Source of the DNA: Phorcus lineatus
Taxonomy: Eukaryota; Mollusca; Gastropoda; Trochida; Trochidae
DNA: 64,000 nucleotides
Direction: 5' to 3'
NCBI GenBank assembly: GCA_921293015.1
Contig: OV121086.1
Location: 41,371,402 to 41,435,401, forward strand
A program made the translations under genes and the position numbers. Shown one piece after another: positions 13,601-16,600 of the stretch. The notes under the pieces were generated by a model, which ran no database searches, was not told where the DNA came from, and worked only from the letters and a program-made list of their open reading frames with translations. How positions within the stretch are numbered: the stretch's first letter is position 1; the number at the start of each line of letters is the position of its first letter.

Positions 13601-16600
13601 ACATAATGACGTCAAACCGTTGTTACATGACGCCATACTATTGTTATCGTGACGTCATTTGAACGTCATGTTGAACAATTGATCCAAATGCTGTTCATTA
13701 CTTTACTTTTTTCTCCTTTTTTGTGTGTGTATTTAATTCGAAACATAATAAAACAATTATGAACTGGTGAATTCGGACAATACCTGTGTTTATAGACCCG
13801 AGGAAAGAAATATTGACCTCGGACTTCGTCCTCTGTCAATATTGCTTTCCTCGGGTCTATAAACACAGGTATTGACCTCATCACCAGTCTATAATTGTAT
13901 AGTATTTCATGATTACAACAGTGGTTTTGAAATGTATTCACGATACTAAATTTATTCCCAAAAGTCATTGTCTATAATTTTTATTCTATTAATAAATTAT
14001 TAATTAGCGTTTTCATGTGTTTAAGGTAATTGTTTTGCATTAGAGTAACCATAGTTTCCAAATACACTATGAATCAAATAAAAAGCAAATTAACCGAAAA
14101 ATGATTTTAACAAACGAGTGGAAGCAATTTTTATAACATAATTATGGGATTATGATGCCAGTGATATCTATTTGAGTTTATTATCTATTTTATTCAAATT
14201 CCTATCCTACTTTTTTAATTTATTTATTTTTGTTTTGTTTAGTAAGTTTATTGTATCTAGTTTCAAACACGCGTATATAGATGAATCTAAAAATTAGCCG
14301 ATTGAGAGAGTTTGTGTTTCCAAGTCAATTAACACACTATACTTTATATTGAAAAGTATAATATCATAAAATTACGTCAAATAACGTTTTGCAATAGTTG
14401 ATACAGGACATAGTATAATTCACTGTGAAAATACCACATGCACGTGAAGATAAGTACTTTTCAAAATTTTGAAATCGTTGAACACATCTTAACCAGTGAT
14501 CAAGCCTCGGAGTCCGCGTTATACCTAAGATTTTTAAAAGCAAAGTTAGTGTTTCCTTGCTTGGTCTTCCGCATTAGCACTTAATTTAAATTGCATTAGT
14601 TTCAGGTAGCTGTTGGATACAAATTTGCAAATTTTACTATTTCTCTCCACGTATTTAGTACAGATATGTTTACCAAGGAACTTACGGAAAGTCCCCGCTT
14701 AACCTTGAATACTCTTTTGGTCGAATGTGCCACCAATAAATGTATTTACGGGAGGAACGCTGCCTTTTAGGCTTCTATAAACCCCAAACATGTTACATTG
14801 CAGGCTGGACCGGTCCAAATTGTACCACGGACATTAATGAATGCAGGTTGAACGTAAGCTGCCCCGATGATACAAATTGCACAGACGCAGCTTTGGACTG
14901 TAGCGGATGTTACATCAACAACTACTGCCACAACAACACCAACTGTACAACCATCCAGGACGACATCACATGCGACGGGTGTTACCTCTTGGACGTGTGC
15001 CATGACAGTATGAACTGCACTCAAATTCTTGAAGAACTTGACTGTGATGGTTGCTATGTCAACGGTTCCTGCCAGACTGGTTACAACTGCTCAGAAGAGT
15101 GTGACGGTTGTTATATAGCTGGTTACTGCTATAACGAAACCAACTGTACAGACATAGACGGGGAATCGGCGTGTGATGGATGTCTTGTAGCAGGGGCGTG
15201 TCACGAGGGCGATAGGTGCAGCAGTGTATACTGGGAACCCCAGTGCCAAGGGTGTGAGATAGACCATGTGTGTCAGTACGGCGGAGTCTGTACCAACCTA
15301 CCCGGGGGGTTCAACTGTACATGTCAACCTGGCTTTGAAGGTAAATATGTTTCCAACACTTTCATACATAGAAGTCATTCCCCACCGAGGTTACTCTAGT
15401 CTTTTCTTCCCTTCCACTCTCTGCAACCGGTGACATTGTTTCAGAGTGTAAGTAAGCAATAGTTTGAAGGCAAAAACTATTATGGGTTGACGACCACATC
15501 ATCCTTCGAGTGATGGTGAAGAAAACATTTATAAGTAGTCACTATTGTATGCAAATCGGCGAAAAAAGATAATTGTTTCAGGCGACACTTGTGAAGAAAC
15601 AGCCCACGAGTGCGTAATTAATCCCTGCCAATATGACGGCTCCTGTACCGGGAATGAAACAGACTTTACGTGTGATTGTCTCCCCTGGAGAGGAGGCGAG
15701 ACCTGTGAGGAGGCAGTAGACACATGTGATGAGGTGGTGTGCTTCAACAACGCCACGTGCACCTCAAACAACGACACGCTGCCCGGCTACACATGCACGT
15801 GCGAGGCAGAATGGGGAGGATATACATGCGAATATCTCTTTGGAGGTGGGTTGATTTAATTAAATTCAGTAAAAAAGGAAATTTTAGTCTTCAGCGAGTT
15901 CGCAAAGTTTAGATATGTTTTAAAGATACAACCTGGAAATGAAATCATGCAGTCTTTGACACGATTATTTTTTTAATAAATTTCCGATATTTTCGTTATG
16001 TTTACAGTCCTTGTGAGTTCATTCATGACATGTAACAACGCGTTACAAGGCATCGACGATCTAGCTAATGTCAACGTACGTCTACTACGAATGATCGACG
16101 AAGTTCTTGATATACAAACATTTAAAAAATCTCATTTGATGACATCTGATGATATCTCGAGATAGAAAGCATTATATACATAGGAATATTTGGTTTATCG
16201 TGAAAAGAATGGTCGAATCTTTTTATCTGTTTGATATATTTCGAAATAGTCCCTGTATAGAAGATTCATCGGCAGAGTTTCATTATTTTGTTGAGTTGTT
16301 CGAGGCCACAACTGGCTGGCTAAAAAAACAATAAGTACCTTTGTTATTAGTGTGTGATATCGCTTAAAACAGCTAATACGATTCCCTATGAATAAAACGG
16401 GATAAATGTTAACAAAAGTGTTTATTGGTACATACATGTACATAGAAATATAGAGCTACACGTATCCCTCAATTAAGAAGCCGACCCTTTTAATCGTTAT
16501 GAATATGTTAAAGGGCACGGTCAGTTACCATTTGTCATATTCCAGATCCTTACACTATCCAACTAAAGGGTGAGATTACGGATAATGAGAGAGAGGATCT

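Follow-up and report, generated by a model that had tools for sequence, protein, structure and literature searches.

The locus and its genes

The window, meaning the whole stretch of 64,000 nucleotides from the gastropod Phorcus lineatus that was analysed, carries on its plus strand a gene predicted to encode a Delta-like type I membrane protein. The gene model, with predicted exon borders, was drawn up manually from open reading frames and splice-site signals in the genomic sequence, and comprises 11 exons between positions 4558 and 19392 that join into 797 codons without a stop (Table 1). All ten acceptors are AG and nine of the ten donors are GT. The sole exception is the donor of intron 4 at 10604/10605, which is GC (AAG/GCGAGT).

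The protein opens with a signal peptide and an MNNL-like head. Next come the DSL domain at residues 166-209 and the six four-cysteine units at 214-350. Three EGFs begin at residues 351, 390 and 428, the membrane-proximal region at 467 and the transmembrane segment at about 579, and the tail carries NPLY at 639. The membrane-proximal region (about 104 residues, exons 8-9) has no Pfam match, and its five PDB matches (best E=0.09) were taken as chance. We would guess at a SEA-like fold for this region. The cytoplasmic part at 18939-19392 contains the NPLY motif and ends in HSEV, which is PDZ-ligand-like and comparable to the ATEV end described for Delta (PMC5356439).

Table 1. Exons of the DSL-protein gene and modules encoded by exon 6 (window positions)
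Feature	Position	Strand	Basis
Exon 1, signal peptide MGTFSLCAVVLVCTTLIK	4558..4611	+	GT donor, phase 0; hydropathy peak at residues 1-26; inferred
Exon 2, start of MNNL/C2-like head	8562..8704	+	phmmer of head and DSL against Jagged1, E=2.4e-13, query 19-191
Exon 3, MNNL head	9509..9623	+	Gene model, phmmer
Exon 4, MNNL head; GC donor	10447..10604	+	Gene model, phmmer
Exon 5, most of DSL domain; loop KEDADGQYTC	12316..12446	+	Pfam DSL E=1e-9, residues 166-209
Exon 6, DSL end, six four-cysteine units, EGF7 up to C5	14804..15340	+	Gene model, cysteine spacing
Unit U1 CRLNVSCPDDTNCTDAALDCSG, DINE just before	14842..14907	+	Cysteine spacing
Unit U2 CYINNYCHNNTNCTTIQDDITCDG	14908..14979	+	Cysteine spacing
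Unit U3 CYLLDVCHDSMNCTQILEELDCDG	14980..15051	+	Cysteine spacing
Unit U4 CYVNGSCQTGYNCSEECDG, short C3-C4 loop	15052..15108	+	Cysteine spacing
Unit U5 CYIAGYCYNETNCTDIDGESACDG	15109..15180	+	Cysteine spacing
Unit U6 CLVAGACHEGDRCSSVYWEPQCQG, without NC[TS] sequon	15181..15252	+	Cysteine spacing
Canonical EGF7 (module 7), C1-C5; C6 in exon 7	15253..15340	+	Pfam EGF, best stretch 351-382; PDB matches to Notch EGFs
Exon 7, C6 of EGF7, then EGF8 and EGF9	15582..15845	+	Gene model, EGF motif scan
Exon 8, membrane-proximal region, no family match	16546..16693	+	Gene model, Pfam/PDB searches
Exon 9, membrane-proximal region, no family match	17271..17430	+	Gene model, Pfam/PDB searches
Exon 10, transmembrane segment (from about residue 579)	18118..18227	+	Hydropathy
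Exon 11, cytoplasmic tail with NPLY, C-terminal HSEV, stop codon	18819..19392	+	Gene model

Other features were identified in the window. A beta-hexosaminidase gene lies on the minus strand at about 22965-30470, with matches to GH20 catalytic, GH20b, CHB_HEX and CHB_HEX_C. Within it, at 26501-26960, about 3.4 tandem 135-bp copies each span part of a catalytic exon, the exon end and the start of the following intron; the additional copies are altered and, in the frames shown, interrupted by stops, and look like decayed exon copies. A satellite-like array occupies 44889-46105 (58-bp unit, 21 copies, 95% matches). Another, at 40522-41121, is a 23-bp tandem array of about 26 copies, with long open frames on the minus strand that give Gln/His/Thr-rich repeats in more than one frame and are probably not coding. 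Intron 5 of the DSL-protein gene contains, at 12940-13900, repeated and partly palindromic blocks resembling copies of a short inverted-repeat element, with arms at, for example, about 13350-13480 and 13750-13900 and 21-mers containing ATGACGTCA.

A four-cysteine array in a single exon

Exon 6 of the 11 (14804-15340) is one open exon with an AG acceptor, a GT donor and phase 1 at both ends, and it is the next exon 3' of the one coding most of the DSL domain. The original prediction had placed here about six compact four-cysteine units in one exon of a DSL-domain protein, and both parts are borne out: Pfam recognises the DSL domain above its cut-off (E=1e-9), and six units of 22, 24, 24, 19, 24 and 24 residues follow at 14842-15252, ahead of a canonical EGF from 15253. 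The 30 cysteines of the exon (gaps 6,5,5,6,2,5,5,8,2,5,5,8,2,5,5,3,2,5,5,8,2,5,5,8,2,5,5,8,1) are all accounted for, with one closing the DSL domain, 24 in the units and five in EGF7, whose sixth lies in exon 7.

Counted from the cysteine of DINEC, the array reads six times C-x5-C-x5-C-x(3-8)-C-x2 and then, as an EGF, C-x5-C-x5-C-x8-C-x-C-x8-C. The spacings from U1 to U6 are 5-5-6-2, 5-5-8-2, 5-5-8-2, 5-5-3-2, 5-5-8-2 and 5-5-8-2, with 5-5-8-1-8 in EGF7. The literal pattern first proposed, C-x2-C-Y-x4-C-x5-C-T, fits U2, U3 and U5 exactly, while U1, U4 and U6 hold variants only. A CDGC motif is conserved between units, which are 29-50% identical to U3. When the residues of exon 6 were shuffled 100,000 times with composition kept, two units arose once and more than two never, against the six observed. 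A loosened pattern (C-x4-6-C-x4-6-C-x3-10-C-x2-C) matches at the six unit sites only across all six frames of the 64 kb. The three modules after the array, EGF7 to EGF9, each have six cysteines with EGF spacing and are the protein's only complete EGFs (n=3).

Ordinary six-cysteine EGFs could in principle be present if the gene model missed exons or followed the wrong reading phase; the model was drawn from genomic sequence, and intron 5 is about 2.4 kb long. However, the array sits in a single uninterrupted exon, and because its 24 cysteines repeat with period four it cannot be re-phased into six-cysteine EGFs, whose period is six. The join of exons 5 and 6 restores an intact DSL end (EGWTGPNC) and that of exons 6 and 7 an intact EGF end (QPGFEGDTC). 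A regular-expression scan of all six frames of the window, blind to an EGF split by intron 6, found six-cysteine EGFs in exon 7 only (two matches) and none in introns; one chance-like partial match was seen at 24420-24476. Since the joins give intact domain ends and the scan finds no further EGFs, a missing exon is unlikely. Together with the period-four cysteines, these results largely rule out missing exons and shifted EGF boundaries, and we consider hidden ordinary EGFs extremely improbable. A strongly divergent or phase-1 cassette exon might conceivably lie in intron 5. The claim of compact units thus withstood both checks, the one for shifted boundaries and, as far as it could be run, the one for a missing exon.

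Relationship to EGF repeats

The predicted kinship in layout between the units and EGF also stands, as four of the six units have the 5-5-8 spacing of C1-C4 in the protein's own complete EGF7, and U1 and U4 differ in the C3-C4 loop only (6 and 3 residues). The earlier view, that the first and last EGF cysteines are missing from each unit, has to be corrected: judged by both array ends, the absent ones are C5 and C6. At the opening, the DSL domain's closing GWTGPNC is followed by TTDINEC, in which we take DINEC to be a linker of the EGF-to-EGF type leading into C1. In phmmer, the DINEC stretch aligns with Notch EGF linkers in 5uk5_A (query 177-196, E=0.028) and 5mwb_A (query 179-196, E=7.4). 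At the far end, C1 of the complete EGF7 is the second cysteine of the array's last CxxC. Because the array opens at the C1 of DINEC and runs in phase into a complete EGF, each unit would correspond to C1-C4 of an EGF without C5-C6.

The profile searches proposed as a check (Pfam, PDB and NCBIfam) recognised the complete EGF and the DSL domain, and assigned the array itself neither to EGF nor to another family. The array alone matched no Pfam family at E up to 10, and an NCBIfam scan of exon 6 returned no family. A unit profile searched against the PDB found no EGF and two chance-like matches (a haemagglutinin chain, E=1.7, and cytochrome c, E=4.8). When the whole array was searched against the PDB, all 30 matches had their best stretch at query 122-170, which is essentially the complete EGF. 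With two units as the query, Pfam returned a single weak match below the cut-off, to EGF_3 (E=0.99); in it, C2 and C4 of U3 fall on model positions 8 and 23, which are also the positions taken by the corresponding cysteines of the complete EGF7.

No joint EGF likeness beyond the cysteines emerged from a Cys-fixed PSSM test of the four 24-residue units, with U1 and U4 left out (joint p 0.17; U2 0.030, U5 0.038, U3 0.73, U6 0.68). Among nine control EGF segments, namely seven of the 11 PDB segments listed and two of the protein's three EGFs (EGF9, with its longer loop, was left out), eight gave p<0.02. The case for a probable EGF origin of the units thus comes from the phase and context of the cysteines; the remaining residues do not add to it. 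As for membership of the EGF-like family, none of the six units has six cysteines (all have four), a 5-6 disulfide cannot exist, and the array has no EGF profile match. Within each unit the cysteines would pair 1-3 and 2-4. AlphaFold gave models too low in confidence to bear on the pairing, with a mean pLDDT of 38.8 for exon 6 alone and 50.1 for two units with a two-row alignment.

These searches also bear on whether the units are instead an unrelated small cysteine-rich module inserted between the DSL domain and the EGFs, in which case the 5-5-8 spacing would be coincidental and pairing might use the CxxC. The PSSM result, the lack of a PDB or Pfam family for the array and the CDGC motif conserved between units all agree with such an origin. 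Against it, the array is bounded in phase by EGF hallmarks, DINEC where it begins and a complete EGF where it finishes, no cysteine is left unassigned, and the sole weak Pfam match is an EGF model in C1-C4 register. We therefore regard an unrelated module as rather unlikely.

Age, constraint and surface of the units

The units are old and have been kept as protein. Among U2, U3, U5 and U6, nucleotide identity is 0.39-0.61, pS is 0.70-0.97 and pN 0.30-0.59, and pN is below pS in all six pairs, which are not independent (U1 and U4 were left out). This indicates purifying selection with synonymous sites near saturation. A recent tandem duplication was rejected because Tandem Repeats Finder lists no array in exon 6 and because of this near-saturation.

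The constraint is also what tells against viewing the units as decaying EGF repeats without function, under relaxed constraint on a redundant stalk. The short loop of U4, the reduced loop of U1 and the divergent DSL loop would suit decay. However, all 24 cysteines are kept despite the near-saturated synonymous sites, pN stays below pS in every pair tested, and the 797 codons contain no stop, leaving decay improbable. A further idea, that an ancestral Delta with nine EGFs (PMC5356439) had six of them truncated (6+3=9), was set aside as a chance agreement of numbers, given the similarity of the six units to each other.

The 137-residue array is acidic, with 24 Asp and Glu against two Arg and no Lys, and holds nine N-x-[ST] sequons. 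Five of the six units place a sequon at N-C3-[TS], a number that none of 100,000 shuffles reached. Asn-Cys-Thr sequons with a disulfide-bonded cysteine may be poorly used. EGF8 and EGF9 both carry C2-x4-[ST]-C3, presumably an O-fucose-type motif, so that the residue before C3 is Ser/Thr there and Asn in five of the six units.

Notch-ligand features and possible role

The head and DSL domain are clearly related to those of Notch ligands. In phmmer against the PDB, they match Jagged1 (E=2.4e-13), fly Delta (7e-10) and other ligands, and the Jagged1 alignment spans both head and DSL, which identifies an MNNL (C2) head; in Pfam, the protein has no MNNL match. The MNNL-like head, together with NPLY and HSEV, speaks for a product that still functions as a Delta-type membrane protein. 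VWC, a Jagged feature, does not appear in the list of 12 Pfam families with E up to 10.

Other features depart from those of canonical ligands. The array follows directly 3' of the DSL domain, where EGF1-EGF2 would be expected. In the DSL loop (KEDADGQYTC), an Asp stands where the PDB ligands have Phe in all five alignments listed; these ligands have F-G-H at the aligned place and two more loop residues. This Phe belongs to the Notch-binding face and is, we assume from mapping residue numbers to letters, F207 of Jagged1. The F207A change abolishes Notch binding by Jagged1 (PMC3888931), and the Jagged1 MNNL-DSL fragment without EGF1-2 is described as binding Notch weakly, with EGF1-2 restoring full binding (PMC2725086). 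In the scheme given in PMC5356439, Delta has at least nine EGF repeats and Delta-like fewer than seven. With three complete EGFs the protein falls short of Delta and would, on that count alone, be classed as Delta-like (PMC5356439).

Taken together, we lean towards the view that this Delta-like protein contains a tandem half-EGF array, acts as a weak or non-canonical Notch ligand and uses the array as a glycosylated spacer. The DSL domain would be followed by six tandem half-EGFs (C1-C4, lacking the C5-C6 loop) instead of EGF1-EGF2, and the array would end in a complete EGF of shared phase and then two more EGFs. If two disulfides, 1-3 and 2-4, close each unit, the array would form a compact stalk, probably protease-resistant, acidic and N-glycosylated. 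The predicted stalk could serve as a rigid spacer holding the DSL head at a distance from the EGFs and the membrane. Lacking EGF1-2 and the key DSL Phe, the protein would bind Notch weakly or differently, and might act as a cis-modulator, as a ligand dependent on a co-ligand or as an adhesion protein derived from DSL ligands. As a more tentative proposal, which we consider less likely than not, a two-disulfide half-EGF may be a stable autonomous tandem repeat that replaced EGF1-EGF2 and swapped a pre-C3 O-fucose for an N-glycan sequon, yielding a Notch-pathway modulator with a new stalk.

The protein might, on the other hand, be a fully functional canonical ligand that activates Notch in trans, the array merely replacing EGF spacers. 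Its MNNL/DSL head, clearly related to those of Jagged1 and Delta, would fit this, as would NPLY and an HSEV end recalling Delta's ATEV (PMC5356439). Nevertheless, the EGF1-2 needed with DSL for full Jagged1 binding (PMC2725086) are absent and the DSL Phe is replaced, and we think canonical activity unlikely.

If the units do fold as half-EGFs, the EGF fold can work as a structural repeat in tandem even after losing its C-terminal loop, a point relevant to the origin of EGF, DSL and comparable small disulfide modules from each other. In this context, PMC2725086 reports a proposal that DSL derived from truncated short EGFs. Half-EGFs here would also offer a natural experiment on the extent to which a DSL ligand depends on EGF1-EGF2, and on whether Notch signalling or cis-inhibition is governed by the length and glycosylation of the stalk. 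Should the units prove unrelated to EGF, they would still be a cysteine repeat with no Pfam or PDB match at the sensitivity used.

Comparison with known systems

The closest comparison is the EGF-like domain (PF00008). The units share its C1-x5-C2-x5-C3-x8-C4 layout, in phase with the protein's complete EGFs, but lack C5, C6 and their loop, place the next C1 two residues past C4 and have no Pfam match. Another four-cysteine module is DPY, which has 1-3/2-4 pairing and a sequence that probably differs from the units. As described for Drosophila Dumpy (PMC2930355), DPY is likewise short (21 residues) and sits beside EGFs in a stiff extracellular protein; unlike the units, which form an array, it alternates with EGFs, a comparison made by description only.

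Among Notch ligands, EGF1-EGF2 of Jagged1 and Delta, atypical and 'trimmed' according to PMC3415683, are also compact EGF derivatives directly after DSL, but they keep six cysteines where the units have four. Duplication of a half-EGF of the type encoded by human JAG1 exon 5 is one way in which the array might have arisen. In JAG1, the other half is supplied by exon 6 to give a whole EGF1 (PMC2725086), whereas in the present gene the coding sequence is divided at other points and there are six half units in a row. Counting against such a source, exon 5 of the present gene stops within DSL, and exon 6 within EGF7, immediately ahead of C6.

No description of a four-cysteine half-EGF array in DSL proteins was found in the open-licence PMC papers searched, including PMC10970066, sequence supplements excepted; such an array may be present unnoticed in published supplements. 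Collections of viral and prokaryotic contigs yielded no relatives, and little was expected there for an animal gene.

The Delta-like and DSL-like genes of molluscs and annelids (PMC8166818, PMC5356439) resemble the present gene in being Delta-related lophotrochozoan proteins with fewer EGFs and altered domain sets, but the texts describing them do not mention a four-cysteine array. Given the molluscan Delta2 clade and the expansion of DSL proteins in bivalves reported in PMC8166818, as well as the Delta-like class of PMC5356439, an unusual DSL protein in a lophotrochozoan is not surprising.
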